From assembly GCF_029962835.1 (NCBI RefSeq), contig NC_080581.1, positions 22,148,001-22,212,000 of the forward strand: DNA of 64,000 bases, in the 5' to 3' direction. The translations under genes were made by a program, and so were the position numbers. The stretch comes from Magnolia sinica. Its lineage: Eukaryota > Streptophyta > Magnoliopsida > Magnoliales > Magnoliaceae. The notes under the pieces were generated by a model. It was not told the origin of the DNA. It worked only from the letters and a program-made list of their open reading frames with translations, and did not search any database. How positions within the stretch are numbered: position 1 is the stretch's first letter; each line of letters opens with the position of its first letter. This document shows, in pieces, positions 4,869 through 16,543 of the stretch.

Positions 4869-6053
4869 TGTCACTCCCTAAACTCGAAAACCGGGCTCAC
4901 AAAATTTTCGATTGCCGAATTCGGCGCAGACAGCCTCCGTAGTATCTCATTCTCCACTCCCGACACTCATATGCCAGATTCTAATCCTGGGGTCTTACAG
5001 GGAGGATTTTCAGTGTGAATTTTTTTTGAACGGTTAATCTATTTAGGCAGTTACACATTTTGTACATGGTATCAACTTATATTAAAGAGACAAACCTGTT
5101 CGACATGTCACACATAATTTGGTGCACTAACTCAACAGTAATGAAGGAAATAATAGCAAACTCCAACAGCTCTTGTAAGCATCCTAAAAAAGTGTAAATC
5201 GTATGTATGAGTAAACCACAGCTCGTGAGTCTACTGCATGCTGGGAATAAAACACGTCTTATCAAGGCACTCTCGTAAAGACATCCAAAACAACCATAGG
5301 TATGTTATCAACCAATCATGTTATCACAGGTGAGTAGGTTATCAATCAAGCATGTCATATAACTATACAAGTTATCATGAATTTGACATCAATAATAGGC
5401 ATGTCACTCAACAAGCGACCATAAACCATTAGAATAGCCAATCATCACGAACAAGATAATCAAATTTCATTTTCTACTATATGACATATGATGGAAAGGC
5501 AATGGCAAGGATGACGTGTAATTGTTCGAATACAAGGACATAATAAACCAAATGTCATACGCTAGGATGTAATGCAATATCCAAATCCTGATGAATCCAT
5601 GAATATGTGAGACAAGGTTTTACCTTCACTGTGTGCATAATATCCTGCTAGCACAGTAGCCTTTCAACCACTGGTAGCTCACCTAGGCCTGTTAGGCCCC
5701 ACTCACATTAGCGTCTGTCTACGTGTTCCCGCCCACATGTGATTATAGTGACGGGGCGTCACAATATGTCATATGTAGAGGATGTAATGCAGTATGCAAT
5801 GCAGAAGAAATGACAAAGCTAAAGTGTGTAGTCCGGATGATAGTACGTGGTATCGCGAGCTGTGGGGTTCATCACAACGGACTTCTATCTAAATCAGTCC
5901 CATACCTAAATTTGGATAGCTAGACTCAATGTGGTAAACTCTTGATCTCAGGTTAGTCACGCGCCCCAACCAAAATCATGGCCATTGCGAAGGTACACAT
6001 AATGATTTGGTTGCGCACCACCAGCCCAAGTGGATAGTGATTGAATGAATGAA
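4869..6053 (-). mobile_element. Element A right LTR, segment 1
   Basis: The segment begins TGTCAC on the plus strand (GTGACA at the LTR 3' end on the minus strand) directly beside the primer site. It matches the reverse complement of the ends of the element B LTRs (for example 22205 back to about 21240) and of the solo LTR near 55168. It includes the recurring block with AGCTTATAGAAAGC-type sequence and CCACTCGGGTTGGTGGT. It is interrupted at 6054 by CACTA-1 and resumes at 14954. Confidence 0.85.
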
Positions 6054-6625
6054 CACTACCAAAAAATGACTAAAGGCTAAGGACTATGCTAGTTTTTGGC
6101 TATGGATATAAACCGTAGCTCTATTACTATGGCTTAAACCCATAGCTAAAAATGCCCAAACCGTAGCTAAAAGCTACCACCTTCACACGTCCATCCAACC
6201 TGCATAGCCCCTTGAGGGACTCTACGAGGCCCATTAAAATTCGTGTGCTCCATCTAATATGTCTATCCGTTTTGAAAAATAATGTTAGGGCAGGACCCAA
6301 AAAATGAAGTAGATTAAACGATCAAGTGGACCACACGTTAGGAAACAGTGGAGATTAATAACTACCATTGAAAGTTCGTGTGGTTCAATTGGACATAATA
6401 TTTGTAGATTTGTTGGGGTCATTTCCTATAAAAAAAATTATAAAATTAATGAACAGAGTGGATTTGTCAAATGCATCAAGATGGACCCCACAAATAGAAT
6501 GAAAAATCCGTCCGTCCAGATCCCGCCAAACGTGTGAACGCGGAGGGGCTGTTACGGACGGAACAATAGCTACGACCTAATGGACTTTTAGCTACGGCTT
6601 TAGACCGTAGTAGGGCTGTAGCAGG
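6054..6625 (+). repeat. CACTA-1 left terminal and subterminal repeats
   Basis: The 5' TIR is followed by several copies of GCTA(T/C)GGATATAAACCGTAGC-like words at 6100-6180 and again near 6570-6612. The words are partly self-complementary (CTACGG...CCGTAG). In CACTA elements such subterminal arrays bind the TNPA-type protein. That role is inferred from family knowledge. 6190-6480 is unique-looking element sequence shared with CACTA-3 (62460-62700). Confidence 0.7.
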
Positions 6626-6649
6626 TACAAAATGTGGAAAACCGCACTC

Positions 6650-6804
6650 ATTTTTCTTTTCCCCCTCTCCCAAAATTTTATTATTTCCCTCTCATGTCCG
6701 TCCTTTTCTCTCTCACTCTCACGTTCGTCCCTTTCTCTCTCACTCTCAATCTCCCACTTCTCTTTTCTCTGTCTCTCTCGATCTCTGACACCATTGTTCC
6801 TGTC

Positions 6805-6839
<35 letters not shown>

Positions 6840-6985
6840 CTCCCGTACCATTGTTCGAAACAGAAAAATCGTCATCAACATTCCTTAGATTGCATCGTCA
6901 GAGAGGATTTTGGTATGCTTTCTTCTCTCTCTCTCTCAATCTCCCGCCCCTTTTCTCTATCTCTTCGATCTCCGACACCTTGATT
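6650..6985 (+). promoter_or_regulatory. CT-rich leader of CACTA-1
   Basis: A pyrimidine-rich run with CTCTCT tracts like a plant 5' UTR follows the left terminal repeats. Equivalent leaders sit just inside the ends of CACTA-2 (30895-31225, and 41281-41500 on the minus strand) and CACTA-3 (62800-63206). ORFs read through it (serine/leucine-rich) are low-complexity artefacts. A transcription start is inferred, not shown. 6986-8165 has no recognisable coding sequence. Confidence 0.45.
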
Positions 6986-8165
6986 AATTGCAAATCAAGC
7001 CTCATCCCAATTATTGGATGATGAGGCATGAATGATGATGAGAAATATTGTAATAAGTCATTGGACTGTAGTAGTCATCCAACCAATGGCATGAGAAAGG
7101 AACTGTTCACTCAAACAAGAAGCATTGGTTGATGGGCTATTGAACACAGAGCCTAGCGAGTGGTCATGGGATGATCAGAAATCCAACGGTGGGATTTCAA
7201 AGTGGGATGGGTTAAAAAATCAAGCCTCAATCATAGAAAATTCCATGCAAGGATAGAAAGTTCTTTGTATGATTACCTATTGCCTGTGGAGCCTTTGTTT
7301 CTGAATTTAATTGCACAGATGGGTTTTCTGAATTTTTTGCCTATATACACTCATGTGGTGGTATCAATGATTTCAATCACTAGAACTCATATGAAGTGTT
7401 CTATATAGCATTTCTCTTTATTTCAATTACTAGATCAATGTTTTCAATCACTTAATTTCAATGAATATGAAATTTTTGTGGAGTTGGTTGTTAAAACATG
7501 CAGGGGAGTTTGTTGTTAAAATGTCAAATAGATGTGATTTTATGGAGTAGTATATTTTCAGTTTGATTGTATTCTCTCTTTATCCGTTGATGGAATATAC
7601 TTTCGGGGTATATTGTTGTTTGATACTCACAACAGACTACTATTTTGTTTGATGATGCTGGAATATTAGTAAAGGGTATTGATGTCAACACCCAACCTGA
7701 TTGATTTGCTTACCCTCCATTTTCCATTTTGGGCATTCTAAAGAGTACATTTGTGGTAATATTTCAAGACCCAAAATTGAAAATAGGGTGCAGCTAAATC
7801 AATTGGAGTAGGCGTTAATAGCAACTCCCCTGGTTAATCAATAACCTGCAATTGATTGCTTTCTTTCAACTCAAACGTTATTTTTTTTTTTTCATTTTTT
7901 GAAGCCGTTATAATTTTTTAGTTTATTTTTGCTTGCAGGCTGGTAGATTTGCTCGCATATGTTGGTGTATGGCCTTACAATTCTCAAAGGTACGCATGGA
8001 ACTTAACAGGATCATTGGCCTATAAGTTCATTTATGTTGTATCTAATGATTTTACATTCAGTAGATTATGATGTCAATAAGATCACCTGGTGATGAGAAA
8101 ATCTGTTGATCTCATTTGCTCATAGATCTACAGTGCATGGGTTGGAGAATGTGTAGCATAAGAGA

Positions 8166-8644
8166 ATGGAAAGTAGAGTGATCTTGCTTCCTTCTGGACC
8201 CTCCATGTGGTTGGCAGGAATGATTTTTGGGTATGGTCTTGGATTTGTGATCATCATGGTCGGGACTACCATTCGTATGACATTGCCATATTTAATTGGG
8301 TTACTTTTTAGTGACCATATTCATGTGAGGCCTCTCTACTTTTCAACTGCAGCAATAATCTAGTTTGAACAGTGATTGTCATTTGTTACTTATTTCCTTT
8401 TCTTCCTGTTACAATTGCATTTCCAGAGATGGTTGAATAGATGGCCCCAGAAAGCGAATGTAATTAGGTTGGCTGGAGAAGGAAGCTGGTTCCATCAATT
8501 TCAAGTGGTGGCACTCTTCCAAGTGTCACCATTTCCCTACACAATTTTCAACTATGCCATAGTGGTAACAAACATGAAATTTGGACCGTACATGTGTGGG
8601 TCAATTGCCGGAATGGTGTCGGAAGCTTTTCTCTACATCTACAA
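8166..8644 (+). pseudogene. Captured fragment of a SNARE-associated Golgi/VTT-domain (TVP38/TMEM64-like) gene
   Basis: Two pieces separated by an intron are recognisable. Piece one (to 8324, then GT) encodes LPSGPSMWLAGMIFGYGLGF, a signature of plant VTT-domain membrane proteins, and ends in the DHIH stretch. Piece two (8427-8644, after TTTCCAG) encodes [20 protein letters not shown], then [15 protein letters not shown] and a GPYMCGS segment, in family order. The rest of the protein is missing, and the reading runs to a stop at 8664-8666. The full-length family protein has about 250-300 residues with several membrane helices, and only its central domain is here. The retained intron indicates capture from genomic DNA. 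Confidence 0.8.
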
Positions 8645-9190
8645 GTCAGTAGTCTCTGAATTTTGAATGATGATATTAGCTGCTTTTTTGATTCAGTGGC
8701 AAATTAAAATAGACAAGCTCTAGAATTTTTCACAGATAGGCAAAGGTCCATGTGACTAGGAAACCCCACTTTTTATTTTTATTGTTTATTTAAGACTGAA
8801 TCTTAGTATATTTTATTTCCTCACTACTACTAATGTCAATATTGTATTTTGTATTTATATCCAAAGATCTGATATGAAAACAATAAAAGGAAAACTTTTA
8901 CTTTTCTATGACTGTATGATTTTTCAAGTTTGTTACAAACCCCTTCTTCTAAAAACCATTGGTTTTATTTTAATGACGACAAGGAAAGTGTAGCATATGA
9001 ACTGTTGCAATGTGATTCAAGTCGAGGAAAAAAGGAAATAAAAGTTCTATTTATGGAGACACTGTTTTTGAAAATTCTGTTTGGTCATTTTAATGATTTT
9101 GAGAAATTGAAACCCATGTAAATATAATAAATATGAAATCTAATTGCAAGGACAATGGAGAACTCCCTAACTAAAATTTCTTATTTCAAG

Positions 9191-9270
9191 CACTTGTTGT
9201 CCTCATGCATGATATGGGTCCAAATTGGGAGCTGATAAGTGATGCTATCAATAGTACCCTGCAGCTCAAG
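9191..9270 (+). pseudogene. Captured exon similar to EAF1/VID21-type chromatin protein
   Basis: After a TTTCAAG acceptor, the exon reads ALVVLMHDMGPNWELISDAI followed by NSTLQLK, then a GTGAAG donor. This matches my memory of the SANT-proximal 'HDMGPNWELVSDAINST' motif of plant EAF1 (NuA4 subunit) proteins. Only one exon of this very large gene is visible. 8645-9190 looks intronic or non-coding. Confidence 0.6.
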
Positions 9271-9620
9271 GTGAAGTTGTATTTAAATCTTTTTCTTTGG
9301 TTATACTAGGAGCACAGTAACTTATAGTGATCTAAGGGAGCTGGAGCATTTTCTGAGTATGGAGAATAGTAATTTTATATTATTTACGAATTACTGGAAT
9401 ATGAAGGACATCTTATTAAATGTGTTGACGCGCTTGGCCGTAATGAAAATGATACTATTTAATAGTTAGAAAATGAGTTTCCAATGGTGGAAATCTAAGG
9501 AGCAAATTGTATGCTGAATATTTACTGCTTGAAGTGCAGTATGAAGACATTATTACAGGATTTTTAATGTCTGTTTAAATTCACAAGCCTCACATTTATT
9601 TTAATGTCTGTAACTTGCAG

Positions 9621-9924
9621 TATGAAGGTCGTAAACACCAAGTGTTTGAGTGTTCCTTGGCTGACCTTCAGGCTGATGAGGATCAGTCCTACAGGATTTT
9701 ACAATCGACAAATTAAGATCGTTGGTCCGTAAGTGGCAAACCTTGATCAAGGCGCATGTACATGTGAAGACGATAGACAACTACACCCTGAGAATGTTGG
9801 ATTCACCAAGAGGCGCCCTAATCAGGTTAAGTGAACCTATTATGCCCAGTCAAGCCAAATCAGAAAAATTTGCAGAAAAATGAGGGAAATCATGGTTAAC
9901 CAGGCAACGTCCTGTGATCTCAAG
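9621..9924 (+). pseudogene. Captured fragment of ribosomal protein eS1 (RPS3a)
   Basis: After a CTTGCAG acceptor, one frame reads [20 protein letters not shown]. It is followed in shifted frames by [45 protein letters not shown] and [16 protein letters not shown]. These are successive eS1 (cyc07/S3a) motifs in the right order. About 20 residues are lost after QSYR, there is at least one frameshift, and stops interrupt it (TGA after RRPNQVK, TAG after DLK). It is a decayed piece, not a gene. The long uninterrupted stretch suggests a large exon or a processed source. Confidence 0.82.
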
Positions 9925-10236
9925 TAGTTGGCGCTTAAGGTTTAGTGTTTTCATTTTCCCTTTCTATCTTCAATTTTCATGGAATGTTTGAGGATTTTGT
10001 TTTAGTAGATGGAGAATTTTGAGAGATGACAATAAGAAATATACATGTAATTGTGGTGCAGATATGGTTTCTGCGAGTTGTGGTGTAGATATACATGTAA
10101 CTATTAAAATAGAAAGTGTAGACTCCACACCAAATCTGCATTCTATCATTTCTACATCTGATGGGGTAATCAACTTAATCATTCCATTGCCAATCTTAAA
10201 AAATGTTGTCAAGTTTAAAAAATATTTACCTTTCTG

Positions 10237-10322
10237 TCTGAACAAATGCTTGTTTCTTTTGTACTGTCTTAGTTATCTTTCTGAACAAATGCTTGTTTCT
10301 TTTGTACTGTCTTAGATATCTT
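10237..10322 (+). repeat. Tandem duplication, 43-bp unit
   Basis: TCTGAACAAATGCTTGTTTC and the bases after it, ending TGTCTTAG, occur twice in direct contact just upstream of the ELMO-like exon. The duplication includes a polypyrimidine-AG stretch, so it may duplicate a splice acceptor region. 9925-10236 shows nothing recognisable. Confidence 0.85.
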
Positions 10323-10327
10323 TTCAG

Positions 10328-11052
10328 AGGTTATTGAACAAGCAAGGTGGAAAGCGAGCTACTTGGGAGTATCCATTTGCTGTGGCTGGTGTAAATATCA
10401 CATTCATGATCATGCAAAGGCTAGATTTGAACTCCCATAAGAGTCATCTCTCTCTCTCTCTCTCTCTCCCTCCCTACCTTCCTCCCTCTGTGTGTGTGTG
10501 TGTGTGTTCATGTGTGTGTTCTTTGTGACACACACTAACAGGTCCCAAGCCCATGTAAATTTGGACGGTTGGTGTCAAATGGGTAGCTCAGCATTCTTGA
10601 GAAGTTGACCCGAAATAACTGAGACAAAGCTATGATGTTGACACACATATACATATAGATGGAATGAGTGTTTTTCCTTTTTCTTTTTTCTTTTACGTAA
10701 TTATTGCCACGGATATTAGTAATATTCTCAAGGCATTGGTATCATCATATCATGATCCTGGTATGAGCACTGCATGAATAATGTTGTGTTCAGTTCATAG
10801 CTATCTGGATCTGGGTTCCATTTTTCATGAAACCAAAAATGGCAAAAAACAAAAAAGAAAAGAAAAGAAAAGGACATGGCACCAATCTCTGCATCAGTGT
10901 TTGTAAATGAATCTATCATAGCTTATAAACTTGAAATTATATGGAATGTGTAGCTACCTGATTGAGAACTTGTCACTAATAATGGCTTATATATATTTGC
11001 AGCAAAACCAAGGACGTTTGTTGGATCAGTTTTCAGCCAAGTGCTTTTAGGT
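10328..11052 (+). pseudogene. Captured fragment of an ELMO-domain gene
   Basis: Exon one, after TTTTCAG, reads LLNKQGGKRATWEYPFAVAG then VNITFMIMQRLDL. Exon two, after ATTTGCAG at 11002, reads AKPRTFVGSVFSQVLL. Together they match the conserved '...EYPFAVAGVNITFMIMQMLDL...SKPRTFV...' core of plant ELMO/CED-12 domain proteins, with the intron in place. The second piece then runs into TAG at 11053-11055. The intron holds CT and GT microsatellites (10447-10510). 11056-12650 contains no recognisable coding apart from a tandem repeat. Confidence 0.78.
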
Positions 11053-12005
11053 TAGACAGAAGTGTCTATGGCCCTCAAACCTGTTTTTATACGTGGGGTA
11101 GGCCCGTGGTGTAGTGATCTAGACTGTTGATTTGATGGCCCATTTTGGAATTGGGAATTTTCAAAAAACCTCACTGATATGACAATCCTAACTGATTGGG
11201 AAGAAGAAACAACAACGACCTACATTTTGAAGGAAAAGGCCAGAGATTGGAACGACTGGGATCTTCCAATCTTTTCATGCCTTGTTTTGCGTCTAAACAG
11301 GGCTGGGTATTTGGGATCCTTTTTTTTTTTTTTAAACAAAAAACTTTTGCCCCTTTGTTTTTCTAAAGACTAAAAACTTTGATACTGGTAGTGTGCAATG
11401 GAGGTTATGCAAGCACCTAGATTACTTAGAAATTGTGTACGTGGCATACAGGTCATTGGTACGTGGCGTACAGGTCATTGAACTGTCCAAATTATGGCCT
11501 AGTTTAGATGTATAATGAACAGAAAAGTTATGCTTGTTTGATCATCTATTCGGTTTGTGCTGAGTTATTTGATGGAAATAATGCCCATGGATCAGTAATC
11601 CAGACCATTCATCCATTGCATCCCAGTGGACAGATTGTGCCCTGAGAATCCCCTGGATTTTTTGCATCCTTTTAGCAACAAATTTGGGACTTCTCTCAAT
11701 TGGAACTAACCACCTACAGGCACCTATACTACTATATGCATTACAAGGCATTTTTTAGCTCCGTGATGTAAAAAAGGTTTTTTTTTTCCTTTTCTTTTTC
11801 CATTTCGTGGCTGAACACCCGTACTACAAATTGTGGTAGAGGTGATTGGAGGTTATCAGTTCTCTTTTTTAATTCAGTGTGGGTCACTTGATTCTCCTAC
11901 TATAGTCCACAAATGGAAATGTTAACATTGTCTCAAAGTAGATTTTTTTTTTTTGCTAGTTACGTTGTTTGTCGAAGATCCTAAAATTGATATGGGTTAC
12001 AGGAA

Positions 12006-12131
12006 TTTGCAGCCCCAAACAAATCACTGTTCTAAAATTAAAAGCCTACCTACTGATTTGCAGCCCTAAACAAATCACTGTTCTAAAATTGAAAGTCTAC
12101 CTACTGATTTGCAGCCCTAAACAAATCACCA
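12006..12131 (+). repeat. Tandem repeat, 51-bp unit, about 2.4 copies
   Basis: TTTGCAGCCC(C/T)AAACAAATC recurs at 12006, 12057 and 12108 with the intervening TGTTCTAAAATT-AAAG-CCTACCTACTGA sequence. The 51-bp period keeps one frame open and produces the ORF at 11969-12178, which I do not regard as a gene. Confidence 0.88.
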
Positions 12132-12655
12132 AAGAAGAAACTGATGTATTGACTCACCAATCGAAAATTTCCCTATGAAGGTAAGTTGTGTACACATCCC
12201 TTTTTATATTCAAGCCATTCCCTTAATTTATGCAAAACTAGGCTACCCAAAATTTATGGACAACTCCCATTGCCTTTGATTTGCTAGAACTAGCATGTGT
12301 GGATTGGCAAAAGTGAGAATGCACTTGGCGTAATTAGTAGCGGTGAGGATCTCCCACAATATTGATAAAACTCTATAAAATAGGAAATAACTCAAATTAT
12401 TATCATAATATGTTGTGTACTCTCTTGGGGCTGTGTATTGAGGCTCAATACATAGTCATATGGTTGTGTATATAGCTGAACATGTATATACCCTTACCAT
12501 TGTGTATATTTTGCCATATGAGGAATTTCCTACATATATACCATCAACAGGATTGTTTTATTTGTACACAGAGATAGACATGCTCTAGGGAGTAACATGA
12601 TGAAAATGTAGAATCAGTATATATAGGGAGTAATATGAAGAAAACATGGAAACAG

Positions 12656-12773
12656 GTCCCCTGGAAATGCATATGTTGAAGGCGATGCATCAAGTACGAG
12701 TTATTTCCTAGCAGGCGCAACAGTCACCGGTGGCACTATCACAGTGGAAGGTTGTAGCACAAACAATTTATAG
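12656..12773 (+). pseudogene. Captured exon of EPSP synthase (shikimate pathway)
   Basis: After an AACAG acceptor the exon reads [20 protein letters not shown], then [13 protein letters not shown], 38 codons in all. It corresponds to a central exon of plant 5-enolpyruvylshikimate-3-phosphate synthase. The last codon before the intron donor is TAG where CAG would be expected, followed by GTATTAC, so the exon end looks mutated by one C-to-T change. Only this exon is present, so no enzyme can be made. Confidence 0.85.
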
Positions 12774-12892
12774 GTATTACAACTCTCTTCCATGTCTACA
12801 TTTGTTGCTTTTTGTACTCATGTACATGTCATCTCATAGATCTTACAATCAGACTATGAGTATTAATTGGACATGACTCCATTTACATTCAG

Positions 12893-13457
12893 CATCAAAC
12901 TGGCTGCAGTTGCTTCTCGTAAGGAACACATAAATTTGGAGCAATGGTTGAACGAAAATTTGAGCACATACAAGGATACTTTTTTCGAGGTGATTCACAT
13001 GCTTTATTTCATTGCCATTGTATGAATGAACTTGTCCTCAATATATGCTACATCTTTTTTTCTCTTAAAGCTTCTTCAACATGAAAATGTTTAGACTCCA
13101 CTCATGGACATGTCTTTCTTTCTTTTTTCCCAGGATTGCCTCAAGTTCTTAAAAGAAATACCTTCTGCAGCAATAAATGATGCATTTGCCAATCCTTTTC
13201 AACATTCCAGCTCTGTCATGAATCTTTATCTAGAGACAAGTTCTACTCTTTTGAAGGTTTTTGCTTCCAAAATTTCTTTTTCTATTACCTATACACAGCG
13301 TCATAGAGAACTACTATGCATATTGTAGTTTACAGGAATATTTCATAGGTCCTTTAAGCCCATTCTGGCCAACTCATCTCCCACCAACTTTCTGAGGAAT
13401 TGAGAAGGTTGCAGGCATCATCTGTGCATGCTAATCCAAGATTGCAAAATGGTGGAG
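12893..13457 (+). pseudogene. Captured three-exon fragment of NOT1 (CCR4-NOT scaffold)
   Basis: Exon 12893-12989 reads KLAAVASRKEHINLEQWLNE, then NLSTYKDTFFE. Exon 13134-13256 begins DCLKFLKEIP. Exon 13349-13457 reads AHSGQLISHQLSEELRRLQA, then SSVHANPRLQNGG. The order, introns and splice signals agree with a plant NOT1 gene as I know the family. An in-frame TAA sits at 13355-13357 at the start of the third exon. The three exons join in the right order, so this was one contiguous genomic capture. The source protein has over 2000 residues. Confidence 0.8.
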
Positions 13458-13638
13458 GTACAAATTCATTTACACATGATGCATCATATCTGATTATTCA
13501 CTAGCCTCTTCAGATCAACAGAAAATAATATTTTTTAGCATCTCTTGTCCAAACACAGTTCAAAATGTATGATTATTCACTGGCCTGTCACTCACTGTTG
13601 AAGCGTATGTTTATTAAGTTGCACTCTTTGTCATGCAG

Positions 13639-13716
13639 CACATTGCGAACCTTGCTGGGATCAAAACTCTAGTTCTGCCTATGCTTGCATTTAACGTCAT
13701 CAATGGAGGATCACAT
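13639..13716 (+). pseudogene. Captured exon of enolase
   Basis: After CATGCAG, 26 codons read [20 protein letters not shown], then INGGSH. This is the well-known enolase segment ending in the INGGSH active-site loop (glycolysis). Homology stops abruptly at 13716 and continues into unrelated sequence. Short but very distinctive. Confidence 0.82.
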
Positions 13717-13852
13717 GGTTTCACTATCAACCTGAATTTTGCGAACCTTGTTGGGAACAGAACTCGGTACAGGTAGATTGTCAATTACTATTTTATTTCC
13801 CATCTTGAAGATTTTATTCATCTCAATGCATGTTATCTTGTTCTCTCCGTAG

Positions 13853-14109
13853 GACATGTTTCCGAGGGGGTAAAACCCAAAGGCAGGGGAGCTCCGAAGA
13901 AGGCTCCTGCTAGAAAGGTGTGTTTGCAAATCCTGAAACTTCTTATTTCCTATCTCCCTATTTTTGTGGACTTCTCATTGCCTTTTTAGTTTCGGTCTTT
14001 CAACAGAAAATGCCGACTGCTATTGATAGTGAAGAGGAAGATGATGAGGTGCTCAAGCTGAAAGAACAACTGGTAGCGTCTAACATTGATTCTCCTTCAG
14101 ATCAAATAG
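13853..14109 (+). pseudogene. Two exon-like pieces, possibly DNA topoisomerase II C-terminus
   Basis: 13853-13917 encodes VKPKGRGAPKKAPARK with AG and GT borders. 14007-14109 encodes an acidic stretch DSEEEDDEVLKLKEQL, then SNIDSPSDQ. The basic-then-acidic pattern with 'LK(D/E)-L-A-N-DS' resembles the C-terminal tail of plant topoisomerase II, but this is low-complexity sequence and could come from another nuclear protein. Confidence 0.35.
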
Positions 14110-14123
14110 GTATATGATCATCC

Positions 14124-14291
14124 ATGTGCAGTAAGCTTTCGGATCAAAGCGAAGCTGAGAATAGGGTGTTAGTTGATTGTAAATTGATAACCAGTAGATG
14201 CACATCCATGGAGTTTTCACTTTCGATTGTTGAGAATCTATTTGGCTGCGAGAAGGCATTGGATCTTGCTATTAATGAGAACTTTAAATAG
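14124..14291 (+). CDS. Unassigned 55-codon ORF near the CACTA-1 right end
   Basis: ATG at 14124 opens 55 codons ending in TAG at 14289-14291. The tail reads SIVENLFGCEKALDLAINEN. I do not recognise the family. It could be the last exon of the chimeric transcript carried by CACTA-1 or another captured terminal exon. Codon content looks protein-like (mixed residues, no simple repeat), unlike its surroundings. Confidence 0.3.
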   Translation: MCSKLSDQSEAENRVLVDCKLITSRCTSMEFSLSIVENLFGCEKALDLAINENFK

Positions 14292-14460
14292 ACATATAAC
14301 TATTATGTTGGCATTATACTTTTGTGAATGGAAATGAATGATTGTGTTTGATTAAATGAATGAATGATTTACCCATGAATTGGATCTTGCTTATATGAGT
14401 TATCAGGGTGTACTACAATGGTAATAGCTGCCATTACAAATTAAATTTTTTATTAACAAT

Positions 14461-14953
14461 AGGCATTAGATACGACTATTAACCGTAGCACTTTGTTGAA
14501 AATCGTAGCTCTTGCTAAATTCAGCTTTTTGCTATGATTCTCATTCTACTTTTAGCTAAAGATAAAATCCGTAGCTATATATAATTTTAACCTACGGGCA
14601 ATGTTGCTACAGATTTAATCCGTACCTATAGTTTAATTAGCTACGGCTATTAACCATAGCTTATTTCCACAAACCGTATTTGTTACTAATTTAAGCCCAT
14701 TGCTACGGATCGTTCATAACTTTTAGCTATAGATATAATCCGTAGCTTTAAATACTTTAGTGCTACAGAAGAAATGACTACAGATTTAATCAGTATCCTT
14801 TATCTCTATGGCTACGGATTGTATCCGTAGCCATAACTTTTAGACCTATGGCTATGGTATCAATGGCTACGGTCGTGCTACGGATCTTAACCGTAGCCAT
14901 AGCCTTTTAGCTACGATTTTTAGCTGTAGCCTTTGACCTGTTTTCTGGTAATG
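14461..14953 (+). repeat. CACTA-1 right subterminal repeats and 3' TIR
   Basis: A dense array of GCTACGGAT / ATCCGTAGC words on both strands at spacings of about 20-50 bp runs to the end AGCCTTTGACCTGTTTTCTG-GTAATG. This mirrors the left end at 6054-6625. The array is longer here (about 15 words). Terminal CATTA replaces CACTA on this side, one substitution. Confidence 0.8.
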
Positions 14954-16543
14954 GAATGAGTTAAATGCTAAGTACATAACTCCTGCTCAGTAAGTCCACA
15001 TATCAATACCATACATCTCTAGAATCATCACCGGGGTTTAGTACAATACTGCCAGTCATACTAGGGTTATGCGATGCAAGGCCTATATGGCCATTGTCAT
15101 ATGCAAGGTACAATTACAAGTCATGTCAGTCCTCATCTGAATCCACATATCAGTACAGTTCCTCTCTGGACAATCTTAGGGGTCTAATACACTATACACC
15201 ACATTGCCGCTCTACACTGGACGCCCAACCGTGCAAGAGAAAAAGACCTCACTACCCGCTTGACTAGTAGTTTGCCAATATCTACCCAGCACGTCGGTAG
15301 CGGACCCATTTATGAGCTGGTCAAACTCAGCCTAGCAATTGCCCCTACCCTTAGGTGGGTAAGGTCACACCCCCTTCCAACTGACCATGACACAGTGGGA
15401 GACGCAGCCCCCTAATATTTGGCCCTCAAGCGCTCATATATCTACTTGGTTTAGGCATTGGAGCATCCTCCATTGTACCATAAAGGTTTGGGGACTTTCA
15501 CACTAGGACATCCTTCACGCCCCCACGCTTAATAAGAATTTTCGATGTCCAATCCTACCATTCATGCTATATCTGCGGATGGTAAAGCCCTAATGTCACT
15601 AGGGTGTATAGTAATCATAATCACATAATACAAGATGTATGAGTCACTCAATCCAATCATGCATCAATCCTATGCATACCGTGTGCTCATGTGGGACAAC
15701 TCCGCCTATCAGGGAGTCCCATAAACAACCTGCCCAATAGCGTATGCAGTGGTTAACCACATCTCATATCATGCATGCAGATGATGCGTATGGGCATGAA
15801 TCATGGTGATGATGTACTCTCCTCATATTAAGGATGGGCCTAGATGGCCTACTCATATCAAGAATGTGCCTAATAATTATGGGGGCCCAAGGATTTAGGT
15901 TATCCCACTAAGAGAAGATGATTATGGGCCTAACAACGGGCCTTAAGGAGGGTTACAATGCAGACATTTAACCACCATTAGCTTTCTAATGTGGTCATTT
16001 AACCATCATTGCTCTCAAGGCATGGCCCATTTTAATACCAATTAAGAAGACGAATGGGCATCATAAACATCTTTACATACATCACGGTAGAATCACACAT
16101 CACAATTGGGCCTCATATACATCACCTTAAGCCTCACACAAGGGCCTCACATACATCACATCGAGCCTCGCTCATGGGCCTCATATACATCACTTTAGGC
16201 CTCACACAAGGGCCTTATATACATCATATTAGGTCTCACTCATGGACCTCATATACATCACTTTGGGCCTCACATAAGGGCCTCATATACATCACATTGG
16301 GCCCCACTCATGGGCCTCATATACATCACTTTGGGCCTTACACAAGTGCCTCATATACATTACATTGGGCCTCACTCATAGGCCTCATATACATCACTTT
16401 GGGCCTCACACAAGGGCATTATATAAATCACATTGGGCCTCACTCATAAGCCTCATATACATCACTTTGGGCCTCATACAAGGGCCTCATATACACCACT
16501 TTGGATATCAAGCATGGTGGTCAACTAGTATGTTTTGTCATCA

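Follow-up and report, generated by a model that had tools for sequence, protein, structure and literature searches.

Broken pieces of eight or nine plant genes lie in one direction within a CACTA element of Magnolia sinica

Results

The element and its captured pieces

We analysed a window of 64,000 nucleotides from Magnolia sinica NC_080581.1, and found that it holds a CACTA element with broken pieces of eight or nine plant genes, all co-directional. The element spans 8.9 kb (6054-14953 of the window, ends placed by eye); its left end CACTACCAAAAAATG starts at 6054, and its right end TTTTCTGGTAATG finishes at 14953. The CACTA of the left terminal inverted repeat is exact, and the right end, TAATG, shows a one-letter change from the CACTA complement. 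These ends and their GAA flanks had been reported in an earlier note on this DNA and were borne out. The terminal inverted repeats, the 3-bp target site duplication, and the 10-20-bp repeats, direct and inverted, in the subterminal regions of this copy are those of the CACTA (En/Spm, CMC) superfamily. Its Transposase_21-type transposase was found in a relative (L011), and the window copy is without it: a six-frame Pfam scan of 6400-14500 detected no transposase. With host gene DNA from six source loci between its ends, the window copy corresponds to a Pack-CACTA. Rfam showed no match within 5000-16000. For 6054-6400, 40 copies were scored at 87-100% identity, the element itself counted.

Table 1 Features of the element in the window
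Feature	Position	Strand	Evidence
Target duplication GAA, left copy	6051..6053		by eye
Left terminal repeat and subterminal repeats, GCTACGG/CCGTAGC units	6054..6620	+	sequence
CT-rich leader	6640..6990	+	CT repeats
EVE-domain piece	7135..7225	+	Pfam 7.5e-4; 93% to host gene
Deletion joint, about 7 kb lost	7875..7882		block present in relatives
VTT (TVP38-type) piece, two exons and intron	8157..8663	+	Pfam 1.5e-4, 7e-8; C3 relative 77%
Possible EAF1 exon	9191..9270	+	tentative name; Pfam Myb E 0.11
eS1 (RPS3a) piece, intronless, internal deletions	9623..9934	+	Pfam and host gene comparison
ELMO-domain exon	10320..10426	+	Pfam 2.3e-7; host genes 71-80%
EPSP synthase (EPSPS) exon	12650..12778	+	Pfam and host gene match
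NOT1 piece, exons and introns	12793..13490	+	Pfam and host gene match
Enolase, intron end and part of exon	13605..13717	+	PDB and host gene match
Topoisomerase II C-terminal piece with intron	13772..14127	+	host topo II genes
Right subterminal repeats and terminal repeat, end TAATG	14458..14953	+	sequence
Target duplication GAA, right copy	14954..14956		by eye

As shown in Table 1, the pieces were identified by Pfam, PDB and host gene comparison, and they go beyond chance expectation. Pfam matched S3Ae/eS1 at 9680-9880 (E 2.8e-10), EPSPS at 12639-12770 (E 1.9e-9), and CNOT1_HEAT at 12867-13022 (E 5.2e-12) and 13095-13325 (E 0.014). The VTT piece was matched in two frames, with E-values just or well below the curated Pfam cut-off. 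The enolase piece was weak in Pfam (E 0.11) and matched enolase in PDB at 1.5e-6. All five of these genes had been named from the sequence alone, and their identities were upheld; the eS1 piece had been called an exon, which it is not, being an intronless and internally deleted copy. Topoisomerase II had been offered with a "perhaps" and proved correct: the piece is 91% identical to the topo II gene on C1 and 90% to that on C13, and a longer piece in the relative L013 matched topo II in PDB at 1.9e-8. An ELMO piece had been drawn from 10328 to 11052. Pfam matched ELMO at 10316-10525, host gene support is limited to about 10320-10426, and the extension to 11052 did not stand. No origin was found for about 2.2 kb (10430-12640). 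The exon labelled EAF1 found no database support, the Myb match being accompanied by nothing relevant in PDB, and the name is therefore tentative. The EVE-domain piece had been overlooked, and with this addition and these corrections the list of pieces holds.

Relatives and loss of the transposase block

In 15 of the 20 relatives fetched, more than 3 kb of a transposase-region block separates the EVE piece from the other pieces, on the same strand as the array. The block in L011 encodes a CACTA transposase with Transpos_assoc, Transposase_21 (4e-79), DUF4218 and DUF4216, again on the strand of the array, and 7/20 relatives show the left part, then the block, then the array in succession. These results showed that the window copy lost its transposase block. 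Three relatives were complete with both ends (L013, L025 and L027), flanked by duplications of TAA, TCA and AAG, respectively. The relatives vary in which pieces they hold and in the extents of the pieces, and two pieces, a second enolase and a PIN carrier, both sense, were present only in them. Since the array is common to many relatives, several of which keep the transposase block, the set predates the window copy.

Sources of the pieces

The donor-locus search proposed in the earlier note was performed in the genome, and six pieces were traced to source loci, which occupy four chromosomes and both chromosomal strands. The EPSPS (14.289 Mb) and NOT1 (11.187 Mb) sources are on the plus strand of C18. 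Those on the minus strand are enolase (C18, 14.937 Mb), EVE (C16, near 62.515 Mb), the eS1 host gene (C6, near 105.146 Mb) and topo II (C1, near 0.233 Mb, or its C13 paralogue, also minus). All six pieces are nevertheless sense in the element. The three C18 sources, 0.65 to 3.75 Mb apart, belong to pieces that are neighbours in the array; the chance of at least three of five DNA-level sources falling on one chromosome was about 0.03, some chromosome lengths being assumed. A single ready-made source with adjoining pieces was rejected for the six, given their spread over C16, C6, C18 (three) and C1 or C13. Four host genes compared with the ELMO piece (71-80%) did not include its direct donor, nor did three loci compared with the VTT piece (70-77% to the window).

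Donor intron DNA was found within the NOT1, enolase (intron end) and topo II pieces. In the window EPSPS piece, the donor match ends at the splice sites of the exon, with no similarity to the donor in the introns on either side. Three relatives (L034, L035 and L036) carry 567 bp that includes the donor introns, at 92-95%; exon-exact capture of EPSPS was thus rejected, and the window copy owes its neat exon edges to a later deletion at one end and to the NOT1 joint at the other. The eS1 piece is without the introns of its host gene and so passed through mRNA.

Order, strand and coding constraint

Across the genome, 289 typed places fell into 178 groups, and at least two kinds of piece were present in 62 groups, with strand conflicts in 0/62 and pieces out of order in 0/62. 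One order across so many relatives indicates that the set was assembled once and then copied. In the window, every piece is on the plus strand, as had been claimed, and the six-frame Pfam scan gave no convincing antisense piece on the minus strand of 6400-14500. The sole minus-strand match there was PANTS-like (E 0.012, below cut-off), antisense over VTT exon 2; the antisense Pfam names in relatives were HTH_ParB (E 0.0043, L013) and PPV_E1_DBD (E 0.042, L024), both below cut-offs, and we judged all three spurious. Some accepted sense pieces were also sub-cut-off in Pfam, and these were retained for their DNA or PDB matches. A Pfam scan misses any piece that lacks a known domain, and 10430-12640 could therefore conceal antisense ones. 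Most pieces matched proteins or host genes, the sources found lie apart, and no convincing antisense piece appeared, the reverse of each finding that the earlier note had named as counting against it.

At splice borders chosen by eye, AG was present before 11/11 and GT after 7/8, VTT being the exception, in agreement with the claim that most pieces keep such borders. Among six NOT1 copies, variable columns numbered 8/75 at codon position 1, 10/74 at position 2, 6/74 at position 3 and 49/471 elsewhere, indicating no codon constraint. Stops, frameshifts and internal deletions were observed in the eS1 and VTT pieces.

Discussion

A CACTA family that collected pieces of host genes and later spread the assembled set is, in our judgement, the probable origin of this element. 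The family, of En/Spm type, would have taken up sequence from ten or more host genes to the left and right of its transposase region: EVE on the leader side, between leader and transposase region, and the others between the latter and the right end. Captures presumably came one at a time. NOT1, EPSPS, enolase, topo II and EVE would have been taken as genomic DNA, and eS1 stems from spliced mRNA, by way of a retrocopy that would have landed in the element or been captured elsewhere. The set would then have propagated along with the family, and the window copy, with about 7 kb of its transposase region gone, would move only with the transposase of its relatives. The observation of a gene-capturing CACTA with unrelated genes in sense direction was thus confirmed with corrections, one being that the array is not unique to the element, as relatives share it. 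The earlier interpretation was supported in part; the two mechanisms that it offered, a chimeric gene that filters for spliceable sense exons and capture coupled to transcription, are candidates.

The uniform direction allows several explanations. Chance with shared descent, in which about ten captures were co-directional by luck and the pattern was inflated by amplification, is a serious possibility that we place somewhat short of even. Order and strand were identical in 62/62 groups, so the copies are not independent, and with shared descent only about ten captures count. For ten captures, a uniform strand of either kind has a probability of 0.002, or 0.001 when measured against the transposase strand, before allowing for the fact that the element had been picked for its look. 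Source genes on both chromosomal strands speak against luck, as do the second enolase and the PIN piece, which are sense too and were discovered after the pattern was first noted. Loss of antisense captures is in our view the likeliest mechanism, proposed tentatively: antisense sequence in the element's own transcript might interfere with an essential host gene or attract silencing to the element itself, whereas sense pieces that bring splice sites would be tolerated. Such a sense-only filter is plausible. It predicts antisense losses, and none were seen. That CACTA elements in general retain only sense host pieces, because antisense ones would silence essential genes or the element, is more doubtful.

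Uptake that itself favours sense, by repair from a transcribed template or by local hops of fixed direction, seems unlikely. The mRNA-derived eS1 piece and the clustering of three sources within 3.75 Mb of C18 are in its favour, and Pack-TYPE local hops are described as keeping orientation (PMC8903248). However, the C18 sources are plus, plus and minus, so a fixed local direction alone gives mixed strands, and the introns in NOT1, EPSPS and topo II argue against mRNA there. Stepwise multi-piece capture is described for maize Helitrons (PMC3288121), but a Helitron or other multi-gene transposon inserted in the CACTA element is very improbable, as pieces flank the transposase block on both sides and their subsets and extents vary among relatives. 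A functional chimeric gene under selection is more improbable still: its splice borders are kept, whereas the broken eS1 and VTT pieces and the lack of codon bias in NOT1 leave a coding chimera unsupported.

This family documents gene capture in many copies; with its known sources, relatives that keep the transposase block and one mRNA-derived piece, it makes the order, mechanism and strand bias of capture testable. A sense bias, if general, would show that exon shuffling by DNA transposons passes through a strand filter, selective or mechanistic; if a general sense-only rule were true, the EPSPS, NOT1, enolase, eS1 and topo II pieces would record a host-imposed one. Our literature search retrieved no paper joining CACTA gene fragments with sense orientation, a result that describes the search and not all of print.

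Soybean Tgm-Express1 appears to be a precedent for a single CACTA that holds several captured exons, all co-directional. It is described as a 5.7-kb CACTA to which five unrelated host genes contributed exons and introns (PMC1947982). According to that account its pieces serve as exons spliced into a single transcript, from which we infer one direction. Tgm-Express1 has fewer pieces, whereas the Magnolia array is common to dozens of groups, has relatives with a transposase block and includes an intronless piece. The Tpn1 family of Japanese morning glory is likewise of En/Spm type; it has captured genic regions and numbers hundreds of copies, and chimeric transcripts are reported for it; as described there, capture replaces the interior of non-autonomous copies (PMC5105172), while in Magnolia it is also found beside the transposase block of relatives. 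Jozin CACTA elements of Chenopodium carry gene pieces inside transposase-bearing elements too, reported as short, single and located upstream of the transposase domain (PMC8978399), in contrast to the long, mainly downstream Magnolia array. Pack-CACTA and other Pack-TYPE elements share the non-autonomous structure with host DNA, and local hops (PMC8903248), and neighbouring elements are proposed to merge and so gain new DNA (as retold in PMC13317346); in the Magnolia family, by comparison, a transposase-bearing ancestry is visible. Maize Helitrons resemble it in their several gene pieces, proposed stepwise capture and internal losses (PMC3288121), but they are another transposon class, and the ends of the Magnolia element are CACTA ends.

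Element ends and transposase-carrying relatives

The element at window 6054-14953 (8,900 bp) is a Pack-CACTA. It starts with CACTACCAAAAAATG, ends with TTTTCTGGTAATG and is flanked by GAA on both sides; a GCTACGG-type unit is repeated, directly and inverted, within about its first 560 and last 490 bases. A 51-bp unit in about three tandem copies was seen at window 12005-12157. The genome (1.84 Gb, 127 contigs; the window is C9:22148001-22212000) was searched with the first 347 bases of the element, and the 40 places scored, the best 40 of 2745 candidates, showed 87-100% identity, its own place counted. A search with window 6900-14400 gave 105 matched stretches (best 40 of 1503 candidates scored).

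Among 20 relatives picked by their left-end match, all 20 carried the left 1.8 kb of the element at least partly. In seven (L009, L011, L012, L015, L019, L020 and L026), extra DNA separated this left part from the array of host gene pieces, which restarted at or near window 7882. The extra block measured about 7 kb in 6 of the 20, and more than 3 kb of it was common to 15, including L011. Protein domains were read in L011, the other relatives being matched at the DNA level, and its block encodes Transpos_assoc, Transposase_21, DUF4218 and DUF4216 on the strand of the array. The open frames after DUF4216 presumably resemble a TnpA-type protein; none of those tested was named by Pfam. In the window copy the block is gone, with the joint at 7875/7882. 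The window Pack-CACTA arose, by internal deletion, from relatives in which host DNA was already present. Three complete relatives had target duplications TAA, TCA and AAG. In L016, L017 and L018, about 3.1 kb of extra DNA interrupted the transposase block, at two distinct positions.

Gene pieces and their sources

Pfam searches of open frames identified VTT, S3Ae (eS1), ELMO, EPSP synthase and CNOT1_HEAT, all on the plus strand, and PDB matches backed eS1, EPSP synthase and enolase. As an unbiased check, window 6400-14500 was translated in six frames with stops read as X and scanned with Pfam. The plus strand gave eS1, ELMO, NOT1, EPSPS and VTT, weak matches to EVE (0.17) and to an acidic region in the topo II part (0.85), and no Pfam name for enolase, while the single minus-strand match (E 0.012, below its cut-off) lay over VTT exon 2. 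The scan showed no convincing antisense piece, in line with the earlier claim that all pieces lie on the plus strand. The list of pieces in the earlier note stood for VTT, eS1, ELMO, EPSPS and NOT1 by Pfam, for enolase by PDB and for topo II by host-gene DNA; its EAF1 piece found no support from Pfam or PDB, and it had missed the EVE domain, recognized by Pfam on open frames.

Source loci of the captured pieces (C, chromosome)
Piece	Source locus	Strand	Window positions	Identity	Extent of match
EVE	C16 near 62.515 Mb	minus	7135-7225	93%	
EPSPS	C18 14.289 Mb	plus		88%	one exon in window copy
NOT1	C18 11.187 Mb	plus	12793-13490	86% by BLAST, 95% without gap columns	exons and introns
Enolase	C18 14.937 Mb	minus		94%	
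Topo II	C1 gene or C13 gene	both minus		91% (C1), 90% (C13)	intron included
eS1 (host gene)	C6 near 105.146 Mb	minus			blocks ending at the gene's introns

Relatives L058 and L059 matched the EVE source at 88-93% over about 550 bp, and EPSPS in L034-L036 comprised 567 bp with introns, 92-95% identical to its source. A NOT1 paralogue on C6 was only 68% identical to the piece, and the enolase copy breaks off within an exon. The eS1 blocks of two older array copies, L046 and L048, were joined with two introns removed exactly; the absence of a third was judged by eye, the host exon beyond lying outside the fetched stretch. Such intron-less joining indicates that the eS1 piece passed through mRNA; the window copy carries additional deletions. 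For VTT and ELMO, nothing nearer than more distant relatives was found among the loci compared, and a 2.2-kb part of the array, at window 10430-12640, gave no source. VTT-like stretches with stops at C3:64405400-64406500 (L056; 77-79% to the captured piece), C17:331662 and C11:40354964 are possibly dead or mobile copies.

L037 and L038 had longer EPSPS pieces (positions 1503-2701 and 1630-2701 of the donor stretch L033), joined to another shared sequence in place of NOT1; here the same gene was captured earlier, or in a separate event. In a different subfamily, the stretch immediately upstream of ELMO (L029 1-310 and L031 1-476, oriented) consisted of other sequence, in which exon borders may be present.

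Order and direction across the genome

Nine genome searches gave 289 places (some rows dropped), which grouped within 15 kb into 178 groups, 62 of them with at least two kinds of piece. Neither mixed strands nor departure from the common order (left end, EVE, VTT or second enolase, eS1, ELMO, EPSPS, NOT1, topo II) occurred in any of the 62; grouping at 30 kb gave 0/60, and a first pass on fewer rows 0/51. A scored left end was included in 16 of the 62 groups. The uniform order and strand show shared descent, so that copies add no independent weight on orientation and only captures do.

The independent captures were all sense (the direction of the L011 transposase strand and the window plus strand). 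Eight belong to the window, EAF1 not counted, and relatives add another enolase piece and a PIN auxin carrier. The second enolase lies upstream of eS1 in another subfamily. It has two exons, differs from the window's enolase and occupies the spot where the window copy has VTT (C8:69605300, C4:13004915, C12:66669759 and similar). The PIN piece was found in L013 (oriented 5836-5967; PDB 1.2e-4, Pfam 0.012) and L022 (Pfam 0.0023), and not in the window copy. When parts of L013, L024, L022 and L028 were scanned with Pfam in six frames, two antisense names came up, HTH_ParB (0.0043) and PPV_E1_DBD (0.042), both below cut-off and judged spurious; PIN, EVE and topo II, also below Pfam cut-offs, were retained for their PDB or DNA matches.

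Origin of the uniform direction

The AG and GT borders need no selection by themselves, because the DNA was copied with introns. Six NOT1 copies showed 94.6-97.1% identity with the donor and 94.2-97.2% among themselves, and their differences showed no codon-position bias, as would be expected for neutral drift after copying. Three adjoining pieces (EPSPS, NOT1, enolase) came from 3.75 Mb of C18, with a chance of about 0.03 when some chromosome lengths are assumed; these sources lie on both strands, and therefore the sense direction was not simply inherited from one chromosome region. Ten of ten captures in one direction have a chance of 0.002 for uniform strand, or 0.001 against the transposase strand, before correction for the element having been selected by the earlier reader. 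Our preferred reading, which we hold tentatively, is a filter against antisense pieces, and uniform direction by chance comes close to it.

Comparison with known elements

In published accounts, soybean Tgm-Express1 has five pieces serving as exons in one transcript (PMC1947982), Tpn1 elements carry genic regions (PMC5105172), and Chenopodium CACTA elements hold single pieces next to the transposase (PMC8978399). Stepwise capture has been argued for maize Helitrons (PMC3288121), and a 22-Mb maize region had gene pieces in 5 CACTA elements versus 187 Helitrons (PMC2773423). The element is a large, well-sourced example of an already known type of gene-capturing element, distinguished by its strict sense direction, its mRNA-derived piece (eS1) and the presence of its array within relatives carrying the transposase block.
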